Source: Peptococcaceae bacterium
Lineage (GTDB): Bacteria > Bacillota > Dehalobacteriia > UBA4068 > JAAVYR01
Length of the DNA: 46,088 nucleotides
Reading direction: 5' to 3'
NCBI GenBank assembly: GCA_022791255.1
Contig: JAAVYR010000022.1
Coordinates: 1-46,088 of the forward strand
In this document: one piece after another, positions 2,630 to 44,778 of the stretch
How positions within the stretch are numbered: the first letter of the stretch is position 1
Layout: each line of letters opens with the position of its first letter
Program-made: the position numbers and the translations under genes
Notes under the pieces: generated by a model
What the model was told of the DNA's origin: nothing
The model's input: the letters and a program-made list of their open reading frames with translations, nothing else
Databases searched by the model: none

Positions 2630-3691
2630 ATGCCTGGTGGAAACCGGACAGATCATAAAGCTATACATAAAAAAAGAAAAGTACAACGAAATAGAACCTT
2701 AGATTTGCTTGCTTTTTTATTATTGATTATATTAGGTACCATGTTTTTTATTCCTCTGAAAGAGTTCTTTGCGGCAAAAATGCTGAACTATGCTACAGTA
2801 ACAGATGGTATTTTGGAGGATAAGATAACAGCAGAAGGTATTATTATTTATGATGCCAAAGTAGTACAAGCCTCTGCCAGTGGTGAATTTGTACCGGTGG
2901 TTCCAGAGGGGGAGCGTGTAGCAGAAGGCGCTCTTGTGGGGTATTTTGTTACTGCCGCTGGTAAAAAGCCAATGTATGCAAGTGCTTCTGGGGCTGTTTC
3001 TTATCAGATAGATGGGTTGGAGGCAGTTCTGACGCCTGTGCAAGCAGATGGGATTGATTTGAATAAAATTTTAACCTTGTTAGATGGGGATGAACATCAA
3101 ATTGCCACACCGGATGAAGGGCAGCCTGTAAAAGATGGACAAGCTCCGGAAGAGTCAGTTCTTGGTGCAGGGAAAGGATTGTTCAAAATTGTGGATAATC
3201 TTTCGGATGTTTACTTTTTAGTGCAGGTAAAAGATGCTGATAAGGCGGCGGCTCTAGAACCAGAGCAGCGCATTCGCATTCGCTTACCAGAAGGTCAGCA
3301 GCAAAAAGAGACTAGTAGCATTGGGGCGGTAGAGGTGATAGATAGCCGCATTACGGCGACAGTTGCTTCGGTGACGCAAACTTCTAATGGAGCTCAAGTC
3401 TTATTAAAAATAAAAAGAAATGATATTGTGCTTTCTGGTGCACGGAAAATAACAATAGATATGCTTTTGGATACAATAAAAGGAAATATTTTGCCGAATA
3501 AAGCAATTTTTTATAATGAAGCAGGAAAACCATGTGTCTATGTCGTAAAGAAGAGTAGACTTGCCATTGCAGGAGTAGAGGTTATGGGGACGATAGATGA
3601 TATGTCTGTTATCGAGGGCCTTTCTATTGGCACGGCAGTGGTGACCAACCCTTCTCTTGCTAAAGCGCAACAAAAGGTATACTTCAAATAG
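2630..3691 (+). CDS. HlyD-like membrane-anchored periplasmic adaptor-type protein
   Basis: The protein has 353 residues. A very basic N-terminus (KKRKVQRNR) is followed by one transmembrane helix at about residues 25-43. An extracytoplasmic region then begins with a lipoyl/barrel-sandwich-like strand set ('ITAEGIIIYDAKVVQASASGEFVPVVPEGERV', broken here by role rather than position). C-terminal beta domains end 'TAVVTNPSLAKAQQKVYF'. The architecture matches HlyD-type membrane fusion proteins that sit beside yggS-sepF in several Firmicutes. No ABC or RND partner is adjacent, so a role in efflux is unproven. The ATG at 2630 has GGTGAGGTGG upstream, and a TATAAT at 2532-2537 may be part of its promoter. 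The stop lies just upstream of yggS, so the two are probably co-transcribed. Confidence 0.75.
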   Translation: MPGGNRTDHKAIHKKRKVQRNRTLDLLAFLLLIILGTMFFIPLKEFFAAKMLNYATVTDGILEDKITAEGIIIYDAKVVQASASGEFVPVVPEGERVAEGALVGYFVTAAGKKPMYASASGAVSYQIDGLEAVLTPVQADGIDLNKILTLLDGDEHQIATPDEGQPVKDGQAPEESVLGAGKGLFKIVDNLSDVYFLVQVKDADKAAALEPEQRIRIRLPEGQQQKETSSIGAVEVIDSRITATVASVTQTSNGAQVLLKIKRNDIVLSGARKITIDMLLDTIKGNILPNKAIFYNEAGKPCVYVVKKSRLAIAGVEVMGTIDDMSVIEGLSIGTAVVTNPSLAKAQQKVYFK

Positions 3692-3719
3692 AAAAGCTAT
3701 GATTGCGGAGGTAATGGGG

Positions 3720-4427
3720 ATGGCAGCAGATATGCAAACTTCTATCGCTACAGGCTTAGAACAGGTGCGGCGAGAAATGGAGCAGGCGGGGAAGCTTTCT
3801 CCTTATGGGAATAAACCCCAGCTGGTAGCTGTTACGAAAACAGTAGATGTGAGCCGAATAGAGGAAGCTATTGCTTGTGGTGTGCAGGCGGTGGGCGAAA
3901 ACCGTGTCCAAGAGCTGCTGGAAAAGTATGCAGTTATCGGCAATAAGGTGGACTGGCATCTGATTGGCTCTCTGCAGACCAATAAAGTGAAGTATATCGT
4001 GGACAAGGTGGCCATGGTTCATTCTCTGGATAGAGAAGAATTGGCGCAAGAATTGCAAAAGCGTTGTGCAGCTATTGGTCGGACTTTACCTGTATTGGTA
4101 CAGGTAAATCTTACAAGAGAAGAAAGTAAGTCTGGATTTTATGAGGAAGATGTGATACCCTTTTTGCAAAAGGCTATAGCTTATCCAAATCTTGCAATCA
4201 TGGGGCTGATGACCATTGGGCTCCCTTCTATAGACCCAGAAGAAACAAGACCTGTCTTTCGGCGGCTGCGGGAGCTAAAAGAAGAAATCAGCCAGCTAGC
4301 CCTTCCTGGTGTAGAAATGAAATATCTCTCTATGGGGATGAGTCATGACTATCCTGTGGCTATTACGGAGGGTGCAAATTTTGTGCGAGTGGGCAGCGCT
4401 ATTTTTGGTAAGCGGTTTTATCCATAA
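3720..4427 (+). CDS. yggS: YggS family pyridoxal phosphate homeostasis protein
   Basis: This is a PLP-binding protein (YggS/PROSC/YlmE family) that buffers free pyridoxal phosphate and affects amino-acid pools; it is a single-domain alanine-racemase-like barrel. The 235-residue product shows the PLP lysine in 'LVAVTKTVDV' (Lys40), 'GENRVQELLEKY', 'WHLIGSLQTNKVKY', 'HSLDR', 'VQVNLTREESKSGF', 'GLMTIGLPS', 'LSMGMSHDYPVAI' and 'VRVGSAIFGKR'. The ATG at 3720 is chosen because GGAGGT at 3707-3712 sits seven bases upstream; frames starting at 3657 or 3714 overlap the upstream gene or the ribosome site. The gene precedes sepF as in the Firmicutes division cluster. Confidence 0.95.
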   Translation: MAADMQTSIATGLEQVRREMEQAGKLSPYGNKPQLVAVTKTVDVSRIEEAIACGVQAVGENRVQELLEKYAVIGNKVDWHLIGSLQTNKVKYIVDKVAMVHSLDREELAQELQKRCAAIGRTLPVLVQVNLTREESKSGFYEEDVIPFLQKAIAYPNLAIMGLMTIGLPSIDPEETRPVFRRLRELKEEISQLALPGVEMKYLSMGMSHDYPVAITEGANFVRVGSAIFGKRFYP

Positions 4428-4495
4428 GTGTTTCAGATAAAAATTATTTTATATAAAGGGATAAAAATTTAAGGAATATTTTAGGGGGTAAAAAA

Positions 4496-5041
4496 ATGAG
4501 CGGATTTATGGACAAGATGAGTAATATTTTCTTCAAAACAGTGGAAGATGATGAAGATGAAATGGAAATGGAAAGCCCAATGCAAAACCGAGGCATTGAG
4601 CGTCCTACGCTGCCCATGACCAGCAGCAAGGCTAGCGCTAGAGACCCACGGGATATTTGGGGAGAACCAGAACCGAAGAAAAACAAGAAAAGCAACTTGA
4701 TGTCTATCCCAACCCAAAATAAGGTGCTGGATATGGTATTGGTAAAGGCTGAGTCTTATGATGATATGCAGACCATTGCCCAGCATATCAAGGAAGAACG
4801 GGTTGTGATTGTCAACTTTGAAGATATGTCTAAAGATGTAGCCCAAAGAATGGTAGACTTCTTAAGCGGCGCTGTCTTTGCCTTGGATGGGGTACCAAAG
4901 AAAGTTTCTGGCGGTACATTCCTTTTTAGTTCCCGCAATGTGGATTTAACAGGGAAGATTATGGATGGCGAACAGGAATTTAGTTCTGCTTTTAATTTTG
5001 GTTCTAACTTAAAAAATGAAAGCAAAGGCTTTAAATGGTAA
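4496..5041 (+). CDS. sepF: Cell division protein SepF
   Basis: SepF polymerises into rings, binds the FtsZ C-terminus and anchors Z-rings to the membrane. The 181-residue product starts with an amphipathic membrane-targeting helix (MSGFMDKMSNIFF), has an acidic linker (about residues 18-85), and ends with the conserved globular domain: 'MVLVKAESYDDMQTIAQHI', 'VVIVNFEDMSKDVAQRMVDFLSG' (quoted in pieces for the family motif), and 'LSGAVFALDG'. AGGGGG precedes the ATG. It lies between yggS and yggT, the usual position in the dcw-distal cluster. About 130 bases before yggT hold no recognisable gene. Confidence 0.95.
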   Translation: MSGFMDKMSNIFFKTVEDDEDEMEMESPMQNRGIERPTLPMTSSKASARDPRDIWGEPEPKKNKKSNLMSIPTQNKVLDMVLVKAESYDDMQTIAQHIKEERVVIVNFEDMSKDVAQRMVDFLSGAVFALDGVPKKVSGGTFLFSSRNVDLTGKIMDGEQEFSSAFNFGSNLKNESKGFKW

Positions 5042-5509: not shown

Positions 5510-5783
5510 ATATCTGTAAAAGCAATGACCAGGACAAGTATTTTATACAGATAGCAAAGCGAGCTGGGGAGGGTGAGAGCCCAGTCTGGTGTATAAAAGA
5601 AAACATCACCTGGGAGTGTTTAGCTGAACCTATTTTATTCTTTCTCTAAAATAGCAAGTAGGTTAAAACGAAGATGCCTCGTTACGGCAAAGAGTGATAT
5701 CAGTTATCCGGAAGGACGCTGCTATCAATAGGGTGGTACCGCGGAGACTTTCGCCCCTAGATGGGGAGGAAGTCCTTTTTTTA
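5510..5783 (+). promoter_or_regulatory. T-box leader of ileS
   Basis: This 5' leader senses uncharged tRNA and controls ileS by antitermination. Visible parts: a stem-I region with the GACAAGTA word near 5535 and the local hairpin CTGGG-GAGGGTGAGAG-CCCAG at about 5562-5585; the T-box core AATAGGGTGGTACCGCG at 5727-5743, which base-pairs with the tRNA acceptor end; then a terminator with arms GGAGACTTTCGCCCC and GGGGAGGAAGTCC followed by TTTTTTT (about 5743-5783). I did not assign the specifier triplet. Around the likely position (GGGAGTGTTTAGCTGAAC) I do not see an Ile codon. Confidence 0.92.
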
Positions 5784-5830: not shown

Positions 5831-8614
5831 ATGGCAACAAAAGATTACGGAAAAACATTAAACTTACCTCAGACAGAATTTCCTATGCGGGCGAACTTAC
5901 CACAGCGGGAAGGGGAATATTTAAAATATTGGCAAGATATTGATTTGTATCATGAAATCTTAAAACAAAATGCGGACAAGCCGAAATTTATCCTTCATGA
6001 CGGTCCGCCTTATGCCAATGGCAATATTCACTTGGGCCATGTACTGAATAAAGTATTAAAGGATATGGTTTGCAAATTTAAATCTATGGACGGTTATAAT
6101 GCGCCTTATGTGCCTGGCTGGGATACCCATGGGCTGCCTATTGAGCAAAAAGCCATTAAAGAGTTAGGCATTAATCGTCATCAGGTGAGCAAAAATGAAT
6201 TTCGTGATAAATGTAAAGAGTTTGCTTTGGGCTTCGTTGACACCCAGAGAGAACAATTCAAACGGGTAGGGGTACGAGCCGACTGGGACCATCCTTATGT
6301 TACCTTACTGCCAGAATATGAAGCAGAACAAGTAAAAGCCTTTGGGGAGATGTGTAAGAAGGGCTATGTTTATAAGGGATTAAAGCCTGTTTACTGGTGT
6401 ATGGAATGTGAAACAGCTCTTGCTGAAGCGGAAATCGAGTATGCAGACCATACATCCCCATCTATCTATGTGAAATTCCCTGTAAAAGACGGTAAGGGCA
6501 TTGTGCCGGAAGACGCTTATTTTGTGATTTGGACCACGACGCCGTGGACCATTCCGGCTAATGTTGGTATCTGTTTAAATGAAAGCTTCACTTATTGTCT
6601 GGCTGAAATTGCCGGCAGTAAATTAGTGGTGGCTAAAGACTTGCTGGAACAGTTTGCAAAGGCAATTGAGGCGGAAGATTATCAAGTATTAGCAGAATAC
6701 CAAGGAAAAGACCTGGAAAGGATTGTTTGCAGTCATCCGCTCTTTGACCGGGACTCTTTGGTTATTTTAGGTGACCATGTTACCTTGGAAGCTGGTACTG
6801 GTTGTGTACATACGGCGCCTGGTCATGGGGTAGACGACTTTATGGTAGGCAAAAAGTATGATTTGCCAGTGATTGCACCAGTAGATGATAAAGGGTGCTT
6901 TACAGAAGAAGCCGGTCCTTTTGCGGGCTTGAAAACTATTACCGATGGTAATAAAGCCGTACTTGCGGCCTTAACCGAAGCTGGTGTGCTCTTAAAAACA
7001 GAGCATATCCGTCACCAATATCCTCACTGCTGGCGTTGTAAGCACCCCATTATTTTCCGGGCGACAGAACAATGGTTTGCTTCTATTGACGGCTTCCGTG
7101 AAAAAGCGCTGGAAGAAATTGATAAAGTGAAATTCATCCCTGCCTGGGGCCATGACCGTATCTATAACATGGTGCGGGACAGAGGCGACTGGTGTATTTC
7201 CCGTCAGCGGAGCTGGGGGGTGCCTATTCCTATTTTCTATTGTGAGAAATGCGGCAAAGATATTATCAACGACGCTACCATTGAAAAGACGGCAAAACTC
7301 TTTGGTGAATACGGCTCTAACATTTGGTATGAAAAAGAAGCTGATGAGCTAGTACCGGAAGGTTTCGTTTGTCCAGAATGTGGTCATAACCACTTCCGGA
7401 AAGAAATGGATATTATGGATGTTTGGTTTGACTCTGGTTCTAGTAGCTTTAGCGTGCTGGAACAACGACCGGAGTTACAAGTGCCGGCTGACCTTTATCT
7501 AGAAGGTAGCGACCAGCACAGAGGTTGGTTTAACTCTTCTCTTTCTATTTCTACGGCAGTGCGGGGCTATGCGCCATACCGCCAAGTATTAACCCATGGC
7601 TTTTTAGTAGATGAAAAGGGCCGGAAGATGTCCAAGTCTTTGGGGAATTTTGTTGACCCACTAGAAACCATTGAGCAAATGGGGGCAGATGTCTTGCGGC
7701 TGTGGGTAGCTTCTGCGGACTATCGTAATGACCTGGCCGTATCTCCCGGCATTATGAAGCAAGTAGGGGAAGCTTATCGGAAAATCCGTAACACCATGCG
7801 TTTCTTAATTGGTAACACTTATGATTACGATAACAAAACCAATCGGGTGGCTTACAATGATTTAATGGAAATTGACCGTTTGGCAGAACACAAGTTGCAG
7901 CAGCTCATTGAAAAAGTCTTAGAGGCTTATCGCAACTACGAATTTCATGTGGTATATCATGCCATTCATAAATTCTGTGTGGTTGATATGAGTGCTTCTT
8001 ACTTAGATATCGTCAAAGACCGTCTCTATGTAGAATGTGCCGATGATGTAAAACGTCGCTCTGCACAAACTGTCATGTATGATATCCTGCAGGTACTATT
8101 GCGGCTGATGACACCTATCCTTGCCTTTACCTCAGAAGAAATTTATTCCTTCTTGCCAAAGGATGCAGACGCACCAAAGAGCGTGCAGATGCTTTCTATG
8201 CCACAGGTAAAAGAAGATTACAAAGACGATACTTTGGCGGCAAAATGGGATACGATTTTTGCAGTCAAAGAAAAGGTTGCCAAAGAATTAGAAGCGGCAA
8301 GAACGGCAAAGACTATTGGCCACTCTCTAGATGCAGCCGTTACCATTTATTGTGATGATGATATTTATGATATTTGTGCTTCTCTGGGGGACTATCTTCC
8401 TTATGTACTCATTGTCAGTCAAGCAAGACTGCGGAAACTTAAGGATATGCCTCACGGTATGGTGGCAGAAGACGGTGTAGCTGTAGGGGTAGAAGCAGCT
8501 GCTGGCATCAAATGTACCAGATGTTGGATTTATAGTGAAACAGTAGGGGAAAATGCGGCCCATCCTGAACTATGTCACCGTTGTGCTACTGTTATGGAAA
8601 AGCTGGATAAATAA
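5831..8614 (+). CDS. ileS: Isoleucyl-tRNA synthetase
   Basis: This cytoplasmic class I aminoacyl-tRNA synthetase charges tRNA-Ile. The 927-residue length is normal. The HIGH-type signature is 'YANGNIHLGH' (residues 61-70). The CP1 editing domain follows ('WTTTPWTIPAN', 'GTGCVHTAPGHGVDDF'). KMSKS lies at 599-603, then the anticodon-binding domain, and a C-terminal zinc-binding tail with 'CTRCW' and 'CHRC'. This is the eubacterial type with the terminal zinc finger. The ATG at 5831 follows a GAGAGGAG site. Expression is controlled by the T-box leader upstream, and a strong terminator follows, so the gene is monocistronic. Confidence 0.98.
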   Translation: MATKDYGKTLNLPQTEFPMRANLPQREGEYLKYWQDIDLYHEILKQNADKPKFILHDGPPYANGNIHLGHVLNKVLKDMVCKFKSMDGYNAPYVPGWDTHGLPIEQKAIKELGINRHQVSKNEFRDKCKEFALGFVDTQREQFKRVGVRADWDHPYVTLLPEYEAEQVKAFGEMCKKGYVYKGLKPVYWCMECETALAEAEIEYADHTSPSIYVKFPVKDGKGIVPEDAYFVIWTTTPWTIPANVGICLNESFTYCLAEIAGSKLVVAKDLLEQFAKAIEAEDYQVLAEYQGKDLERIVCSHPLFDRDSLVILGDHVTLEAGTGCVHTAPGHGVDDFMVGKKYDLPVIAPVDDKGCFTEEAGPFAGLKTITDGNKAVLAALTEAGVLLKTEHIRHQYPHCWRCKHPIIFRATEQWFASIDGFREKALEEIDKVKFIPAWGHDRIYNMVRDRGDWCISRQRSWGVPIPIFYCEKCGKDIINDATIEKTAKLFGEYGSNIWYEKEADELVPEGFVCPECGHNHFRKEMDIMDVWFDSGSSSFSVLEQRPELQVPADLYLEGSDQHRGWFNSSLSISTAVRGYAPYRQVLTHGFLVDEKGRKMSKSLGNFVDPLETIEQMGADVLRLWVASADYRNDLAVSPGIMKQVGEAYRKIRNTMRFLIGNTYDYDNKTNRVAYNDLMEIDRLAEHKLQQLIEKVLEAYRNYEFHVVYHAIHKFCVVDMSASYLDIVKDRLYVECADDVKRRSAQTVMYDILQVLLRLMTPILAFTSEEIYSFLPKDADAPKSVQMLSMPQVKEDYKDDTLAAKWDTIFAVKEKVAKELEAARTAKTIGHSLDAAVTIYCDDDIYDICASLGDYLPYVLIVSQARLRKLKDMPHGMVAEDGVAVGVEAAAGIKCTRCWIYSETVGENAAHPELCHRCATVMEKLDK

Positions 8615-21888: not shown

Positions 21889-21917
21889 TTGACGATAAGA
21901 TAAAAAGAGACTATGAT
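21889..21917 (+). promoter_or_regulatory. Promoter of the lysine-riboswitch transcript
   Basis: TTGACG at 21889-21894, a 17-base spacer and TATGAT at 21912-21917. This places the start shortly before the aptamer. Confidence 0.65.
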
Positions 21918-21940
21918 GATACTAGATAACAAAATAAGGT

Positions 21941-22102
21941 GGTAGAGGTGCAGATTTTATCAGTAGCTGTAAGCAGGATGGGCCCGAATGCCCGCATGCA
22001 GCGAAAGGAAAATCTGCCGAAGGAATGGTTTTGGTTCGGCAAGATATTTCTGGGGTGCTGCAAAATATGCAGCACACTGTCACGGTTTCGTGGAGCGCTA
22101 TC
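21941..22102 (+). promoter_or_regulatory. Lysine riboswitch (L-box) aptamer
   Basis: The P1 arms GGTAG (21941) and CTATC (22098-22102) pair. Conserved core words follow in the right order: AGAGGTGC after P1, the GCCGAAGG word closing the second helix, a long CTGGGGTGCTG...CAGCACACTGTCA helix, and GGAGCGCTATC at the 3' end. The layout matches the five-helix L-box next to lysC in B. subtilis as I remember it. L-boxes repress lysine synthesis or transport genes when lysine is bound. Confidence 0.9.
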
Positions 22103-22134
22103 AACGGTTTGACTCAGTATCTGAAAAATGCAGA

Positions 22135-22193
22135 CCATGAGCGCTTTTGCGTCTATGCAGAAGAAATAGACAAGCGTTCATGGTTTTTGTTTT
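22135..22193 (+). terminator. Riboswitch expression-platform terminator
   Basis: CCATGAGCGCTT pairs with AAGCGTTCATGG over 12 positions (one G-T), enclosing a small inner GTCTAT/ATAGAC stem, and is followed by TTTTTGTTTT. It lies between the L-box and the transporter start, so lysine binding is expected to stop transcription here. Confidence 0.88.
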
Positions 22194-22270
22194 ATTTCGG
22201 AAGTAATCAGAAAAGTGGCAAAAACTACTTGTTTTGTTCCGCATAAAAGAGAAAGAGAGAGGTGTTGCAA

Positions 22271-24460
22271 ATGCGCAAAAAAGGATATGGCGTATTTGGC
22301 TTATCCCTGGCCCTATGTGCAGTGGCCGTCATGTTTTTACCGATGGCAGCTCTTGCAGAGGGAGAAGAATATGTTCCTGCAATGTACCAAACATTCTGGT
22401 CATTGGTGCCACCAGTTGTGGCCATTGCCTTGGCGCTCATCACGAAGGAAGTATATAGTTCTCTATTTATTGGTATTTTAGTTGGTGCTTTGTTTTATTC
22501 GGATTTTGCTTTTGAGGGGACAATCCAACATTTGGTAAACGATGGTTTCCTTGCGGTACTGACCGATGGCGATAATATGGGTATTGTTATCTTTCTGGTG
22601 ATTTTAGGAGCCATGGTATGCTTGATGAATAGAGCCGGTGGTTCTGCCGCCTTTGGCCGCTGGGCTTCTGTCAGGATTAAAAGTCGGGTAGGCGCGCAAC
22701 TGTCTACAGTACTTTTAGGGTCTATGATTTTTATTGACGACTATTTCAATTGTCTGACGGTAGGGAGTGTTATGCGTCCTGTTACGGACAAGCACTACAT
22801 TTCTCGGGCAAAGCTTGCTTATCTGATTGACGCCACGGCAGCGCCTATTTGTATTATTGCGCCTATTTCTTCTTGGGCGGCAGCAGTTTCTGGTTTTGTG
22901 CCGGGACAAGACGCGATTGCTCTTTTTGTTCAATCCATTCCGTATAATTTTTACGCATTGCTTACCATTGTTATGATGATTGGCCTTGCTGTGATGAAAG
23001 TAGATTTCGGCCCCATGGCTATCCATGAGCGAAATGCAGTGCAGGGAGATTTATTTACTGTAAAAAATGCGCTCTATGCAGAAGTCAAAGAGGAAGAAGT
23101 CAATAGCAAAGGCCGGGTAATGGACTTGGTGGTGCCTATTTTTGCTTTGATTGTTTGTTGTGTCATTGGGATGATTTATACAGGCGGCTTTTTCTCTGGT
23201 GTGGATTTTATCACTGCTTTTTCTGATTGCAGTGCATCTCAAGGCTTGGTGCTTGGTAGTCTTTTTGCTCTTGCCATTACTATCGTGTTTTATGTATGCA
23301 GACGGGTACTGTCTTTCAAAGACTGCATGGGATGCTTGCCAGACGGTTTTAAGTCTATGGTACCGGCAATTTTAATTCTCTCTATGGCTTGGTCCCTGAA
23401 GGCTATGACTGATAGCCTGGGGGCAAAATATTATGTAGAAGCTTTGGTAAAAGGAACCTCTGCTAGTTTTATTAGCTTCTTGCCGGCGATTGTGTTCTTA
23501 GTAGGATGTTTTCTTGCCTTTGCTACTGGTACTTCTTGGGGAACATTTGGTATCCTCATTCCCATTGTAGTAGAAGCCTTCCAGTTTGAACCAACGCTGA
23601 TGATTATTTCTATTTCGGCTTGCATGGCTGGGGCTGTTTGTGGTGACCACTGTTCGCCTATTTCGGATACGACGATTATGGCGTCGGCTGGTGCCCAGTG
23701 CGACCATGTGACTCATGTCTCGACCCAGTTGCCTTATGCTGTGAGTGTTGCAGCTATTTCCTTTGTGGTTTATCTTTTAGCTGGTTTTGTACAGAGCGCT
23801 TGGATTTGTTTACCTATCGGTATTTTACTGACATTGGGATTTCTCTTTATTGTTAAAAAAACACAAGGTCATTCTGTAAAAGCTGGGGCAGAACCTGCTG
23901 CTGCTTTTTGTGGGGCAGTTAGTGGAGCAGTCGCAGCGGAAGAAAAAGAAGAGCACGGTTATGCATTAGCAAAACATTTCCAGCAGCAAGCCGCCATGGA
24001 TTTAATGACAGGGGTGTATAATCGTACTTATTTTGAGCAACATGTGGACGAGCTTTTAGCGGAGCAAGCGTCTGGATATTTTTATCTCATTGATTTAGAT
24101 GATTTAAAGCAATTTAATGATACAAAAGGTCATCAGTACGGAGATGAAATGATTTGCTCTTTGGCGAAAGCATTAAAAGAAATCTATGGGAAAGGTGATT
24201 GCATTGGCCGCATTGGCGGAGATGAGTTTGCTGTCTATGCAGCAGGGGAGCTGGGCAGTGAACAAGCTATCGTCAAAGCCGAACAAATCCATACGGTATT
24301 AAAAGCAAATGGTTGGGATTGCTCTATTGGCATTGTAGAAGTAACGCCGGAACAAAGAACATTTGATAAGTTATATCGTAAAGGGGATAAAGCTCTTTAT
24401 TTTGTAAAGCGAAATGGGAAAGGTGGCACGCATTTTTTCTCAGATGAATTAGAACAATAA
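22271..24460 (+). CDS. NhaC-superfamily (probable lysine) transporter fused to a GGDEF diguanylate cyclase domain
   Basis: The protein has 729 residues in one open frame. Residues 1-30 hold a hydrophobic signal-like helix (PMAALAEGEE). From about 35 to 530 there are 11-12 membrane helices of the NhaC type, with 'MIFIDDYFNCLTVGSVMRPV', 'DATAAPICIIAPISSWAAA', 'FATGTSWGTFGILIPI' and 'GAVCGDHCSPISDTTIMAS'. A basic linker (about 535-565) leads to a complete GGDEF domain: 'DLMTGVYNRTYFEQ', metal Asp in 'IDLDDLKQFND' (Asp608 on), 'GHQYGDEM', active loop 'RIGGDEFAVYAAG' (GGDEF 649-653) and 'ALYFVKRNGKGG'. The usual RxxD inhibitory site is replaced by GKGD. ATG 22271 is chosen because GAGAGGTG is six bases upstream. 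The L-box upstream argues that lysine, not only Na+/H+, is the substrate. mnmA follows without a terminator. Confidence 0.9.
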   Translation: MRKKGYGVFGLSLALCAVAVMFLPMAALAEGEEYVPAMYQTFWSLVPPVVAIALALITKEVYSSLFIGILVGALFYSDFAFEGTIQHLVNDGFLAVLTDGDNMGIVIFLVILGAMVCLMNRAGGSAAFGRWASVRIKSRVGAQLSTVLLGSMIFIDDYFNCLTVGSVMRPVTDKHYISRAKLAYLIDATAAPICIIAPISSWAAAVSGFVPGQDAIALFVQSIPYNFYALLTIVMMIGLAVMKVDFGPMAIHERNAVQGDLFTVKNALYAEVKEEEVNSKGRVMDLVVPIFALIVCCVIGMIYTGGFFSGVDFITAFSDCSASQGLVLGSLFALAITIVFYVCRRVLSFKDCMGCLPDGFKSMVPAILILSMAWSLKAMTDSLGAKYYVEALVKGTSASFISFLPAIVFLVGCFLAFATGTSWGTFGILIPIVVEAFQFEPTLMIISISACMAGAVCGDHCSPISDTTIMASAGAQCDHVTHVSTQLPYAVSVAAISFVVYLLAGFVQSAWICLPIGILLTLGFLFIVKKTQGHSVKAGAEPAAAFCGAVSGAVAAEEKEEHGYALAKHFQQQAAMDLMTGVYNRTYFEQHVDELLAEQASGYFYLIDLDDLKQFNDTKGHQYGDEMICSLAKALKEIYGKGDCIGRIGGDEFAVYAAGELGSEQAIVKAEQIHTVLKANGWDCSIGIVEVTPEQRTFDKLYRKGDKALYFVKRNGKGGTHFFSDELEQ

Positions 24461-24490
24461 AAATAAATGAAAATAGGAAATCAAAAGTCA

Positions 24491-25534
24491 ATGAAGAAAA
24501 AAGTGTTAGTGGCTATCAGTGGGGGCGTAGACTCTGCTGTAACCATGGCCTTATTACAGGAACAGGGCTATGAAGTGGTGGGCGTTACTATGATAGCTGA
24601 TAGTGAGGAACCTGCAAAAGAAGGGGCTGCTTTAAGTGCAGCCATGGGCTGGGAACATCACATTGTTGATGTACGGAAGGAATTTAAGACTTGTGTGCAG
24701 GATTACTTTTTACATCAATATGAGCGGGGTCTGACGCCTAATCCATGTATTGCTTGTAATAAATATATTAAGTTTGGTCTTTTATTTGATTATATGAAAA
24801 AGGTTGGTGCGGACTATTTTGCTACTGGTCATTATGCGCGCGTAACATTTTCTGACGATTATAATCGTTATGTGCTGAGAAAGGCGGTTTACCAGCCCAA
24901 AGACCAATCTTATGTATTGTTTAATTTATCCCAGCAGGTTTTATCTCACTTACTGTTGCCGTTGGGGAATTACAAGAAAGAGGATATCCGGGAAATGGCG
25001 CGGAATATGGGCATCCCGGTTGCAGAAAAAAAAGAAAGCCAAGACATTTGCTTTATTCCGGATGGGGATTATCGGGGATACTTGGCAAGGGCTGGTCTTC
25101 GAGCTCAGCCTGGAGATTTTGTAACGCCAGAAGGTCTGGTAATCGGTAAGCACAAGGGGATTTCTTCTTATACCATTGGTCAGCGGCGAGGCTTAGGGTT
25201 GGCATTGGGGTATCCTGCTTTTGTGGTAGATATCAATGCAGAGAAAAACCAAGTGGTTGTTGGTGCGGAAGGCTATCTTTATCAAAAAGATTGTATGGTG
25301 GACGAGGTAAACTGGATAGCTATCCCGGAACTTACCGAGCCTATGCAGGTAGAGGTGAAAATCCGTTATAAAAGCGCACCGGCAAAGGCTGTGATAGAAC
25401 CAGAAGACCAGCAGGTGCGGGTGGTCTTTGACACTCCGCAAGCGGGTATCACACCTGGGCAGGGCGGTGTGTTTTATCAGGGGGATACGGTTATCGGCGG
25501 TGGTATTATCACAAAAAAATCATCAATAAATTAG
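24491..25534 (+). CDS. mnmA: tRNA-specific 2-thiouridylase MnmA
   Basis: MnmA adenylates U34 of tRNA-Lys, -Glu and -Gln and inserts sulphur to give s2U34. The roughly 347-residue product has the PP-loop 'AISGGVDSAVTMALL', the catalytic-cysteine block 'GLTPNPCIACNKYIKFG', 'ADYFATGHYARV', 'PKDQSYVLFNLSQ', 'SQDICFIPDGDYRGYL' with the second cysteine, and a C-terminal beta-barrel 'GKHKGISSYTIGQRRGLG'. ATG 24491 is preferred because an AGGAAA lies upstream; ATG 24467 lacks a ribosome site. The N-terminal 'VGVTMIADSEEPAKEGAALSAAMG' is shorter than the common long insertion of this family. It lies 30 bases after the transporter-GGDEF gene and probably shares its transcript, so lysine may also influence it. 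Confidence 0.95.
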   Translation: MKKKVLVAISGGVDSAVTMALLQEQGYEVVGVTMIADSEEPAKEGAALSAAMGWEHHIVDVRKEFKTCVQDYFLHQYERGLTPNPCIACNKYIKFGLLFDYMKKVGADYFATGHYARVTFSDDYNRYVLRKAVYQPKDQSYVLFNLSQQVLSHLLLPLGNYKKEDIREMARNMGIPVAEKKESQDICFIPDGDYRGYLARAGLRAQPGDFVTPEGLVIGKHKGISSYTIGQRRGLGLALGYPAFVVDINAEKNQVVVGAEGYLYQKDCMVDEVNWIAIPELTEPMQVEVKIRYKSAPAKAVIEPEDQQVRVVFDTPQAGITPGQGGVFYQGDTVIGGGIITKKSSIN

Positions 25535-29157: not shown

Positions 29158-29739
29158 GTGGCATTAAATCTGATTTGGCTGGGTATGGTGGTTATCGGGG
29201 TGCTGTATGCAGGATTTTCCGGGCAGATTGAGGTGATTTCTCCGGCAGCTTTTGCAGCTGCTGAACAAAGCGTGGGTATTTTCCTAGAAATGGCCGGTAT
29301 TCTTGGCTTATGGATGGGGCTGTTAAATCTGGCGGAAAAATCTGGTTTTGTGAATATTTTAGCCCGGGGAATTTCACCGATTGCAGTGCGGCTTTTCCCC
29401 GATATTCCACGGAATGACCCAGCTATGGGTGCTATCGTGATGAATATGTCAGCGAACCTTTTAGGCTTGGGCAATGCTGCTACACCTTTTGGCATCAAGG
29501 CCATGGAAGAAATGGCGCGATTAAATGGTCATCAGCCTGTGGCCAGCAATAGTATGATTACTTTTTTGGTGTTGAATACATCATCGGTTACCCTTATTCC
29601 TGCCACTGTCATCGGCCTACGGACAAAAGCAGGTGCTGCTAATGGGGTGGACATCGTGCTGCCGACTTTTTTAGCGACAGTCATTGCTTGCACGGTGGGA
29701 CTTTTGGCTGATCGTTTTTATAGAAGATGGTTTTCTTAA
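29158..29739 (+). CDS. spmA: Spore maturation protein A
   Basis: SpmA is a membrane protein needed, with SpmB, for spore core dehydration. The 193-residue product has five or so helices and the nucleoside-recognition (Gate) pattern: 'MALNLIWLGMVVIGVLYAGF', 'GLWMGLLNLAEKSGF', 'GAIVMNMSANLLGLGNAATPFG' and 'MITFLVLNTSSVTLIPATVIGLR' (family blocks). The start is GTG at 29158 with AGGGAG upstream. spmB follows after 54 bases. Confidence 0.96.
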   Translation: MALNLIWLGMVVIGVLYAGFSGQIEVISPAAFAAAEQSVGIFLEMAGILGLWMGLLNLAEKSGFVNILARGISPIAVRLFPDIPRNDPAMGAIVMNMSANLLGLGNAATPFGIKAMEEMARLNGHQPVASNSMITFLVLNTSSVTLIPATVIGLRTKAGAANGVDIVLPTFLATVIACTVGLLADRFYRRWFS

Positions 29740-29793
29740 AAGTAAATCAAAAAGTAAAAGTATTGCATGTAAGCAAGGAAAGGTGAATAGGCA

Positions 29794-30330
29794 ATGGCTG
29801 TCTTATATGGAATTTCTCAATGGGTAATCCCCTTTCTTCTACTGATTATTCCTCTTTGGGCTTGGTTGAAACAGGTATCTGTTTATGATTGTTTTGTAGA
29901 AGGAGCAGCAGAAGGGGTAAAAACAGCTATTCATATTTTCCCATATATTCTGGGAATGTTGGTAGCCATTGGTATTTTTCGCAGTTCTGGTGCGTTAGAC
30001 GCTATGATAGACATCTTATCTCCTATCCTAGATAAGCTGGGCTTTCCCGCTGAGGTACTACCTTTGGCTATGATACGGCCTTTGTCCGGCAGTGGAGCAT
30101 TGGGGGTTACAGCAGAGCTTATTCATACTTATGGGCCGGACTCATTTATCGGGCATTTGGCCGCTATGATGCAAGGGAGTACCGATACGACATTTTATAT
30201 TTTAGCTGTTTATTTTGGCTCTGTAGGAATAAAAAAATATCGTCATGCTGTTTGGACCGGGCTTACAGCAGATTGTGCCGGGTTTCTTGCGGCGATTTTC
30301 ATGTGTCATCTTTTTTTCCCTATTGGCTAA
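29794..30330 (+). CDS. spmB: Spore maturation protein B
   Basis: SpmB is the partner of SpmA in spore core dehydration. The 178-residue multi-pass protein has 'VYDCFVEGAAEGVKTAIHIFPYILGMLVAIGIFR' as the opening Gate segment (only part quoted), 'MIRPLSGSGALGVTAELI' and 'MMQGSTDTTFYILAVYFGSVGI', all typical. AAGGAAAGG precedes the ATG. The gene ends about 25 bases before the rluB promoter. Confidence 0.96.
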   Translation: MAVLYGISQWVIPFLLLIIPLWAWLKQVSVYDCFVEGAAEGVKTAIHIFPYILGMLVAIGIFRSSGALDAMIDILSPILDKLGFPAEVLPLAMIRPLSGSGALGVTAELIHTYGPDSFIGHLAAMMQGSTDTTFYILAVYFGSVGIKKYRHAVWTGLTADCAGFLAAIFMCHLFFPIG

Positions 30331-35002: not shown

Positions 35003-37051
35003 TTGGCAATTTTTCGTGCAAATCATGCCGGCTTTTGCTTTGGTGTGAAACGAGCCATTGGACTTGCTGTTGATAGAGATAATAAAGCACCTATCTATGC
35101 AGTGGGTCCCTTAATCCATAATAGCCGAGAGATGCAGCGCTTGAAGGAACATGGTGTTGTTCAAGTTCAAGCCTTAACAGAAGTACCGGTAGGCGGTACA
35201 GTCTTGGTGCGTTCTCATGGGGTTGGTCCTGATTTTTTAAGACAGGCTGCTGCCAGAAGCTTAACAGTTGTTGATGCTACTTGTCCTTTTGTAAAAAAAA
35301 ATCAAGAGTTTGCAACGAAGCTTTCTCATGAGGGCAAGCAGGTGATTATTTTCGGTGATAAAGAACACCCTGAAGTGCAGGCAATCCTTGCTTGGACGGA
35401 AGGAACAGCCTGGGTTATCAAAAACAGTGATGAGGTAATAGATTTGCCTCTTACTGAAAAACCTGTTGTTTTCATGTCGCAAACGACCCAGCAAAAACAG
35501 GAGTTTCTGACGGTGGCAGCTGCCATCAAAGGGAAATATCCTGATGGGAAAGTAGAGGATACTATTTGTGCGGCGACGAATTTACGGCAACAGGGCGTAC
35601 GAGATTTAAGCAGGCAGGTGTCTCTAATCTTGGTAGTAGGTGGTAAGGATAGCGCCAACACCAAAAACTTAGCAAGAATAGCTGAGGAAATGGGTGTGGT
35701 TACCTATCTGATAGAAAGTGCAGCAGAAATCATATCTGATATGGTAAAAGGCCATACTCAAGTTGGTATTGCTGCTGGCGCATCTACTCCCTTGTGGATT
35801 ATAGAGGAAATTGAGGAGGTATTGTTGAAGATGTTAGACATGGAAAATCAAGTAGAAGGTACACAAGCAGATTGCGAATTAGGCGCAGATCCTTATGGTG
35901 AAGGGTTAAAAGAAGTACACAGAGGTTCTCGGGTAAAAGGGGTTGTCGTTCAAGTAAGCGACAGCGAAGTATTGGTAGACATCGGCGGAAAATCTGAAGG
36001 TGTTTTGCCATATACTGAAATTTCTGATAGTGAAGCCAGCGATATTCGCAAGCATTTTGCTGTTGGTGATGAAATAGAAGTTTTGGTTATCCGCAAAGAA
36101 AACAAAGAAGGCTATCCTGTTCTTTCTAAAAAAAGAATTGACCAGGAATTATACTGGACAAAACTTGCTGAAATGAAAGAAAAGGATGAAGTCGTAACTG
36201 GGAAAATCGTAGAAGTAGTAAAAGGCGGGGTACTGGCTGATGTAGGGGTACGGGGCTTTATCCCTGCTTCTTTGGTGGATATTGGTTTTGTAGAAGATTT
36301 ATCTGCTTATAAAGGCAAAGAAATCACTGCTAAAATCTTAGAATGTGAAAGAAAGAATAATAAATTATTGCTCTCTCCAAAAGCTGTTTTATTAGAACAA
36401 GCTGAAAAGCAAAAAGCTGCTACTTGGGCTAGCTTAGAAGAAGGGCAAACCAGAAAAGGGATTGTTCGTCGTTTGACTTCCTTTGGTGCTTTTGTAGAAA
36501 TTGATGGTGTAGACGGTTTATTGCATGTTTCTGAAATGGCTTGGCACAGAGTAAACAAACCAAGCGATATCTTAAAAGAAGGCGATGAAGTAGAAGTTTA
36601 CATCTTGGCTGTTGATAAAGAAAAGCAAAAATTGTCTTTGGGGTTAAAACAATTAGTTGTAAATCCATGGACCGTTGCCAAAGAAAAATATGTAGAAGGC
36701 AGTGTATGGGATGCATTGGTTTTGCGTACAGCTCCATTTGGTGCTTTCTTGCAATTGGAACCAGGTGTAGAAGGCTTGGTACACATTTCCCAAATTTCCT
36801 GGAGTCGGGTAGAAAAAACAGAAGACGTTTTGAAACCTGGCGATCAAGTAAAAGTAAAAATCTTGTCTGTAGATGAAGAAAACAGACGGATTAGCCTAAG
36901 CATTAAAGAAACAACAGAACGGCCTGCTGCACCTGTAAAACAAGAAGCTGAAACAGTAGCAGAAGAAACGCCTGCTGAAGAACAAATTCCTACTGAAAAT
37001 GTGGAAGAATTAGGCGTAACCATCGGTGACGCTATCAGCGAAAATGAATAA
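35003..37051 (+). CDS. ispH: IspH (HMBPP reductase) fused to ribosomal protein S1
   Basis: This is one frame of 682 residues. Residues 1-280 are IspH, the last enzyme of the MEP isoprenoid pathway, with the three iron-sulphur cysteines at Cys12 ('GFCFGVKRAIG'), Cys94 ('DATCPFVKK') and Cys189 ('ICAATNLRQQG'), plus 'VVGGKDSANT'. Residues about 308-635 are four S1 RNA-binding domains (about 308-375, 393-460, 480-547, 565-634), such as 'GIVRRLTSFGAFVEIDGVDGLLHVSE', then an acidic tail (640-682). The fusion is known in several clostridial lineages. The start is TTG at 35003 with GGATGTGA upstream. It is transcribed from its own promoter and ends at a strong terminator. Confidence 0.95.
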   Translation: MAIFRANHAGFCFGVKRAIGLAVDRDNKAPIYAVGPLIHNSREMQRLKEHGVVQVQALTEVPVGGTVLVRSHGVGPDFLRQAAARSLTVVDATCPFVKKNQEFATKLSHEGKQVIIFGDKEHPEVQAILAWTEGTAWVIKNSDEVIDLPLTEKPVVFMSQTTQQKQEFLTVAAAIKGKYPDGKVEDTICAATNLRQQGVRDLSRQVSLILVVGGKDSANTKNLARIAEEMGVVTYLIESAAEIISDMVKGHTQVGIAAGASTPLWIIEEIEEVLLKMLDMENQVEGTQADCELGADPYGEGLKEVHRGSRVKGVVVQVSDSEVLVDIGGKSEGVLPYTEISDSEASDIRKHFAVGDEIEVLVIRKENKEGYPVLSKKRIDQELYWTKLAEMKEKDEVVTGKIVEVVKGGVLADVGVRGFIPASLVDIGFVEDLSAYKGKEITAKILECERKNNKLLLSPKAVLLEQAEKQKAATWASLEEGQTRKGIVRRLTSFGAFVEIDGVDGLLHVSEMAWHRVNKPSDILKEGDEVEVYILAVDKEKQKLSLGLKQLVVNPWTVAKEKYVEGSVWDALVLRTAPFGAFLQLEPGVEGLVHISQISWSRVEKTEDVLKPGDQVKVKILSVDEENRRISLSIKETTERPAAPVKQEAETVAEETPAEEQIPTENVEELGVTIGDAISENE

Positions 37052-43299: not shown

Positions 43300-44778
43300 G
43301 TGGAAAAGTTTGATGTCATGCAAGACATTGCAGAACGGACCGGAGGCGATATATATTTAGGCGTGGTAGGTCCAGTACGAACAGGGAAGTCCACCTTTAT
43401 TAAAAGGTTCATGGAATTATTGGTCCTTCCCAATATTATCGAATTCCATGAACGGGAACGGGCTCAAGATGAATTGCCTCAAAGTGGTGCAGGACGGACG
43501 GTGACTACTACCGAACCAAAATTTATCCCGTCTGACGCCGTAGAAGTAGAAGTGCGGGAAGGCTTATCTGTAAGGGTACGGCTAGTAGACTGTGTGGGCT
43601 ATGCTGTGCCGGGAGCTTTAGGCTTTGAGGAAGAAGCAGGTCCTAGAATGGTACATACGCCATGGTTTGACGACCCTATTCCTTTTCAGGAAGCAGCGGA
43701 AATCGGCACCCGTAAAGTGATTACAGACCATTCTACTATTGGTTTTATCATTACCACAGACGGCAGCATTACCGACATTGCTCGCGACAGCTACGTAGAA
43801 GCGGAAGAACGAGTGGTAAATGAGCTAAAAGAATTAAATAAACCCTTTGTGATTTTATTAAACTCCATTCATCCTACTGACCCCGAAACAGTAGCATTAT
43901 CTCAAGAATTGTCTGCAAAATATGGGGTATGTGTATTGGCTATTAACGCTTCTACCATGAGTTATGATGATGTGATGGCTGTGTTACAGGAAGCGTTGTA
44001 TGAATTCCCGGTAACAGAAGTCAATGTCAATTTGCCTCGCTGGGTAGAAGAGTTGGAAAACGACCACTGGTTGCGGAAGCAATTTGAGGACTGCGTGCGG
44101 GAAGGGGTATCCGGCGTGCGCCGTATCCGGGATATTGACCAATTGCTGACAAAATTAGAAATTCCTGGAATTGTAGGGGAAGTACAGCTCAAAGAAATGG
44201 TGCTGGGTACTGGTGTTGCATCTATTTCCTTAATTGCTGATAAAGATTTGTTTACCAAAATCCTGGAAGAATACACCAATCGGAAAATCGAAGGGGAACA
44301 TTCTATCCTCAAGTTGGTACGAGAATACAGCTATGCTTATAAAGAATGGGATAAACTCTCCGAAGCTATGGCAGAAGTACGCTCCAGCGGTTATGGGGTG
44401 GTGACGCCAAGACTGGAAGAAATGTATCTGGAAGAACCAGAACTCATCAAGCAGGGCGGTCGTTTTGGGGTAAAACTTCGGGCCAATGCTTCTAGCTTCC
44501 ATATTATCCGTGCTAATATCTCTACAGAAATTACTCCATTAATCGGCACGGAAAAACAATGTGAAGAACTGGTAAGATATATCTTAAGTGAATTTGAAGA
44601 CGACCCGCAAAAAATCTGGAGTACCAATATTTTCGGTAAATCTCTCCATGAATTAATGCAAGAAGGCATTCAAGGCAAACTCTACCGTATGCCAGAAAAT
44701 GCCCAGGCAAAATTACAAGAAACTTTACAGCGTATTGTCAACGAAGGCGGCGGCGGTCTTATCTGCATCGTGTTATAG
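43300..44778 (+). CDS. spoIVA: Stage IV sporulation protein A
   Basis: SpoIVA is the coat-morphogenesis ATPase that polymerises on the forespore surface. The 492-residue product has an N-terminal Walker A 'GPVRTGKST' (24-32), 'ERERAQDELPQSGAGRTVTTTEPKF' (opening part as switch), 'VRLVDCVGYAVPGALGFEEEAGPRMV' (family block), and a C-terminal domain ending 'GGGGLICIVL', the invariant tail used in membrane/coat assembly. The start is GTG at 43300 after GAGGGAGGG. The length is standard. It confirms a spore former. Confidence 0.98.
   Translation: MEKFDVMQDIAERTGGDIYLGVVGPVRTGKSTFIKRFMELLVLPNIIEFHERERAQDELPQSGAGRTVTTTEPKFIPSDAVEVEVREGLSVRVRLVDCVGYAVPGALGFEEEAGPRMVHTPWFDDPIPFQEAAEIGTRKVITDHSTIGFIITTDGSITDIARDSYVEAEERVVNELKELNKPFVILLNSIHPTDPETVALSQELSAKYGVCVLAINASTMSYDDVMAVLQEALYEFPVTEVNVNLPRWVEELENDHWLRKQFEDCVREGVSGVRRIRDIDQLLTKLEIPGIVGEVQLKEMVLGTGVASISLIADKDLFTKILEEYTNRKIEGEHSILKLVREYSYAYKEWDKLSEAMAEVRSSGYGVVTPRLEEMYLEEPELIKQGGRFGVKLRANASSFHIIRANISTEITPLIGTEKQCEELVRYILSEFEDDPQKIWSTNIFGKSLHELMQEGIQGKLYRMPENAQAKLQETLQRIVNEGGGGLICIVL

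Follow-up and report, generated by a model that had tools for sequence, protein, structure and literature searches.

The window, a 46,088-nucleotide stretch of DNA from a gut Peptococcaceae bacterium with a genome of 1.56 Mb, contains a single open frame in which an NhaC/LysW-family transporter is joined to a C-terminal GGDEF domain, downstream of a lysine riboswitch (Table 1). The reading tentatively favored here is that of a lysine-repressed, probably working LysW/NhaC-type transporter carrying a probable diguanylate cyclase. It was preferred to a GGDEF domain that regulates the transporter and to a cyclase that is not coupled to transport.

Table 1. Features of the fusion locus (window positions) and of the degenerate proteins found in the genus (positions within the named loci)
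Feature	Position	Strand	Basis and remarks
Promoter-like site TTGACG-17-TATGAT	21889-21917	+	10/12 consensus matches, of a quality not commoner in the region than in shuffles; directly before leader
Lysine riboswitch aptamer (L-box)	21935-22108	+	RF00168, E 4e-26, model 1-182/182
Antiterminator	22093-22146	+	Folding of truncated transcripts
Intrinsic terminator	22132-22193	+	Folding; outer stem, inner hairpin, T-rich tail
Transporter-GGDEF fusion gene, 729 aa	22271-24460	+	Open frame, 729 codons, no internal stop
Signal-peptide-like hydrophobic N-terminal segment, residues 1-29	22271-22357	+	Hydropathy; inferred
NhaC/LysW-family transporter domain, residues about 37-530	22379-23860	+	PF03553; AlphaFold2 model; family columns
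Linker, residues 531-573	23861-23989	+	Low-confidence stretch, then helix into GGDEF
GGDEF (diguanylate cyclase) domain	23990-24421	+	PF00990, alignment, domain model; intact active-site motifs, no RxxD
Degenerate GGDEF-HD protein, three species	L112 1537-2760; L115 907-1977; L117 1471-2541		WQGNC for GGDEF, QD for HD
Second HD-GYP-like protein, window's genome	L118 1189-2028		YD for HD, GQL for GYP

The preliminary description of this DNA had placed an L-box at 21941 to 22102 and a 12-bp terminator at 22135 to 22193. The aptamer was confirmed by a covariance-model match to RF00168 that scored 101.9 bits, where the gathering threshold is 30, and the terminator proved close to the one described, with an outer stem of 15 bp (22132 to 22146 with 22172 to 22186). 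The fold of the whole leader gave a z score of -3.5, and 0/200 shuffles folded equally well. A simple terminator scan, admitting loops of 3 to 8 bases only, did not list the real terminator. When the transcript was folded as far as the terminator loop, an antiterminator was seen in which GAGCGC..UCA..GGUUUG (22093 to 22111) pairs with CAGACC.UGA.GCGCUU (22131 to 22146). This pairing occupies the 3′ strand of P1 (strands 21940 to 21945 and 22098 to 22103) together with the terminator's 5′ arm, so that antiterminator and terminator are mutually exclusive. By folding, the RF00168 match is thus followed by an expression platform of a terminator with an overlapping antiterminator, and the layout of the leader is classical lysine-OFF. 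From these competing RNA structures, the transporter-GGDEF fusion is very probably expressed under the control of lysine sensing in the window's species. High intracellular lysine would stabilize P1, leaving the terminator free to form and to shut off synthesis of the transporter; in the absence of lysine, the antiterminator would instead capture P1's 3′ strand. TTGACG and most of the second promoter-like hexamer were found at the same place in a third species of the genus (G002, locus L058), where an equivalent terminator stem is retained with sequence changes.

An mnmA-like gene (24467 to 25534) starts only 6 bases after the fusion gene, and because of this spacing it may come under the lysine riboswitch as well; tRNA-Lys is one of the tRNAs that MnmA modifies. 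A conserved operon link between the two genes was rejected, as a cysteine-synthase-like gene lies between them in the sister species. Elsewhere in the genome, a lysA-like gene scored 285 bits, just below the family cutoff of 298, and in the window a T-box leader (RF00230, 115.3 bits) at 5516 to 5761 stands before a gene (5831 to 8614) for an IleRS-like class I tRNA synthetase.

The uninterrupted 729-residue frame that had been claimed was borne out, with no stop in the gene and with matches to both PF03553 and PF00990. A Shine-Dalgarno-like GAGAGAGGTG lies just upstream, and the start region is conserved in the two related loci, L002 and L058. PF03553 (Na_H_antiporter) matched residues 199 to 506 (E = 7.7e-55, 186.7 bits versus a cutoff of 23), AlphaFold2 modeled the transporter domain with pLDDT mostly of 80 to 97, and the modeled half resembled elevator proteins of the ion transporter superfamily (the MleN model, INDY, TRAP, and ArsB). 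No PDB sequence match was obtained for the transporter half. Because the equivalog for the Na+/H+ antiporter NhaC proper, TIGR00931, gave 40 bits against a cutoff of 370, the fusion protein was not filed as NhaC proper. The model for Tet(35) tetracycline efflux (NF000013) gave 204.7 bits against a curated cutoff of 750, and the likeness to Tet(35) appears to be a family resemblance only. All 65 of the near-invariant family columns, taken as those with conservation of 97% or more across 32 unfused relatives, were retained in the fused proteins of both species. Because of this complete retention, the transporter half probably still transports and is probably not a sensor that has lost transport; its substrate would most likely be lysine or another basic amino acid, or Na+/H+.

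The GGDEF domain, which the preliminary description had called intact, does not appear catalytically degenerate. PF00990 matched residues 574 to 717 in the protein search (E = 1.5e-28, 100 bits versus 23.8), and the fused domain gave an E value of 5.8e-30 in the whole-genome search. When the GGDEF sequences were aligned, separately from those of the transporter, the metal and GTP motifs DLDDLK, FND, GH, GD, and GGDEF were found to be kept in both species' fused proteins; the late lysine is kept as well. The RxxD inhibitory site was not present in the alignment, its place being taken by GKGD in the window protein and GENA in the sister protein; this site is common in diguanylate cyclases and is not required. 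Modeled alone, the domain reached a pLDDT of 93.7. By its motifs it is a probable diguanylate cyclase; it is most likely cytoplasmic. The linker before it is the least conserved part between the two fused species. In the full-length model, pLDDT was 25 to 45 over residues 531 to 570, and a helix was predicted at residues 558 to 580. The GGDEF part of that model was poor, probably owing to an alignment with only two such sequences, and the relative placement of the two domains is for that reason not readable from it.

The same fusion was present in a sister species (locus L002, matched to genome G001 by coordinates and identity), 88% identical over 728 residues. Rough Nei-Gojobori dN/dS values for the two species were lowest in the transporter (0.034), intermediate in the GGDEF domain (0.07), and highest in the linker (0.23); they are approximate only, synonymous sites being near saturation. 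By this comparison, the fused GGDEF domain is under purifying selection. In the third species, the L-box and the start of the gene are present, as far as residue 231, where the contig ends. No L-box was found before the fusion in the sister species or elsewhere in its 75%-complete genome (the window's genome is 96.8% complete and that of the third species 87%); about 60 bases (L002 2941 to 3001) separate the stop codon of a rarA-like gene from the start codon of the fusion. The absence of the riboswitch there may reflect loss or an assembly fault. Since the sister species keeps the fusion without an L-box, the cyclase is not invariably tied to control by lysine.

The preliminary description had presented the L-box, the transporter, and the GGDEF domain as three things not normally found together. 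For the first two this did not stand, since they form a known and common pair: an NhaC-like gene lies under an L-box in Clostridioides difficile, where lysine transport or Na+/H+ exchange has been proposed (PMC11477304), and lysW/COG1757 genes are found under lysine riboswitches across several groups (PMC5584792). Among the loci scanned here, 21/60 had an L-box just upstream of an NhaC/LysW-family transporter gene, or 20/58 without the two loci of the genus. L-box presence was scattered over the transporter tree, with at least seven changes forced by well-supported branches, so the tree says little about the time of gain or loss in this case. One locus (L056) carried the NhaC-family transporter gene in two tandem copies (1038 to 2699 and 2836 to 4560).

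Only for the GGDEF domain did the claim of novelty hold. Some 70 relatives of the transporter in other genera, mostly 50 to 73% identical to the window protein, end after the transporter with no GGDEF domain. In an even sample of the phylum (398 genomes, 94 with a transporter match), an open frame of more than 650 codons was found only in the window's genome. A search for the NhaC-plus-GGDEF architecture thus placed the fusion in two species of this genus and in no transporter relative found outside it. In three other loci (L006, L030, and L032), apparent partial matches to GGDEF downstream of the transporter were rejected as spurious, as they extend through stop codons into unrelated sequence. 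A literature search found no description of GGDEF-antiporter or GGDEF-transceptor fusions. On the sequences compared, then, the L-box and the transporter are ordinary together, and the GGDEF domain is what is new, seen so far in one genus.

Other parts of c-di-GMP signaling were sought in the three genomes of the genus. No EAL, PilZ, or MshEN domain was found in them, and no c-di-GMP-I riboswitch, for which the same search was positive in 31/61 genomes; the receptors covered were PilZ, MshEN, and c-di-GMP-I. The only other GGDEF domain of the genus belongs to a GGDEF-HD protein, present in all three species with WQGNC in place of GGDEF. Since both of its domains are degenerate and it is nevertheless kept in all three species, a non-enzymatic role may be supposed for it. 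The search for a phosphodiesterase likewise yielded no EAL domain and two HD_5 proteins that read QD and YD for HD. With catalytic residues missing from the other GGDEF domain and from both HD-GYP-like domains, the only apparently active diguanylate cyclase found in the three genomes is that of the fusion, accompanied by no recognized reader or eraser. The proposed chain from lysine supply through c-di-GMP to a lifestyle switch therefore survived in its first link only, the control of expression. Its remainder is not supported, in view of the sister fusion without an L-box, the absence of EAL, PilZ, MshEN, and c-di-GMP-I, and the degeneracy of the other GGDEF and HD-GYP-like proteins. As separate observations in the window, a single frame of 682 aa (35003 to 37051) joins IspH (LytB) to S1 RNA-binding repeats, and SpoIVA (43300 to 44778) and two spmA/spmB-like genes (29158 to 30330, the first matching Pfam Gate) suggest that the organism, with its 1.56-Mb genome, forms spores.

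In the favored reading, a transporter of the genus would have gained a C-terminal GGDEF domain able to make c-di-GMP. Transporters of this fold are usually dimers. A transporter dimer would bring two GGDEF domains side by side, the arrangement required for diguanylate cyclase activity, and the transport cycle might then alter that activity through the linker. Coupling is the weakest of the steps that we infer, and a stretch of low confidence and poor conservation in the linker would loosen it mechanically. A fuller form of the proposal, a "transceptor" in which lysine-type transport through a lysine-repressed transporter directly sets the c-di-GMP made by the only intact cyclase and other receptors read it, so forming a minimal c-di-GMP circuit, is unlikely. 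The GGDEF domain might instead regulate the transporter, by binding GTP or c-di-GMP or as a dimer tether, and so tune transport rather than signal elsewhere. We consider this rather unlikely, although it would suit the only intact GGDEF domain of a genus in which no c-di-GMP receptor or phosphodiesterase was recognized, as well as the full conservation of the transporter, and although in staphylococci the reported biofilm effect of GdpS, a single GGDEF protein, seems to be independent of c-di-GMP (PMC9714401). Against it, the intact motifs include catalytic ones beyond those for GTP binding, and with no RxxD site, binding of c-di-GMP there is unlikely.

The low-confidence, poorly conserved linker stretch would also suit an active cyclase that transport does not control, for which the fusion would provide only membrane placement and co-expression, with lysine acting at most via the amount of protein. 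CbrA offers a parallel, in that it transports histidine and none of its activities was significantly affected by L-histidine (PMC7096432). However, the helix at residues 558 to 580 runs straight into the GGDEF domain, the usual place of signal input, and such an uncoupled cyclase appears unlikely. That the domain is a decaying remnant of a lost c-di-GMP network might be supposed from the small genome and from the degenerate GGDEF-HD protein and second HD protein, but purifying selection (rough dN/dS, 0.07) and the retention of all catalytic motifs in two species make it highly improbable. The genomes compared are draft assemblies, and an artifact of assembly was considered as the source of the fusion; it was rejected because the fusion of the sister species, 88% identical, agrees in junction and length in a separate assembly and with its GGDEF domain under purifying selection. 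Such an artifact is very unlikely, the least probable of the explanations weighed.

The lysine-repressed transporter with its probable cyclase invites comparison with several known systems. The LysW/NhaC-superfamily genes under the lysine riboswitch (COG1757, and CD1655 of C. difficile) belong to the same superfamily and share the position of the L-box (PMC11477304, PMC5584792). The substrate of the NhaC-like family is unproven (PMC11477304), equally so for the CD1655/COG1757 genes (PMC11477304, PMC5584792). Their descriptions include no GGDEF domain, whereas the window protein has one. Lysine riboswitches precede NhaC/LysW genes widely; in the fusion, c-di-GMP would be a built-in enzymatic readout that could report the state of such a transporter. 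GdpS, to our knowledge, is not fused to an NhaC-family transporter and is not reported under a lysine riboswitch. It resembles the fused domain in being the only conserved-GGDEF protein of its genome (PMC9714401), and an organism with almost no other recognized c-di-GMP parts would be a simple place to study a lone GGDEF domain. CbrA, an SLC5 transporter-histidine kinase (PMC7096432), and the Kuenenia Amt-histidine kinase (PMC5764959) are likewise transporters fused to a signaling output, but that output is a histidine kinase, and in the window protein it is a GGDEF domain. The nearest architectural precedent appears to be a 644-aa "Ammonium transporter" with GGDEF at residues 464 to 631 (PDB 8qj3 and 8qj4; also 8qpf), on which no paper was found in the literature search. 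Its single chain combines a transporter fold with a diguanylate cyclase domain at the C terminus. It is of the Amt family, whereas the window protein is PF03553, so the latter may work like it without being a member. If the favored reading is true, the protein would add to the ammonium transporter a second transporter fold that is fused to a diguanylate cyclase.
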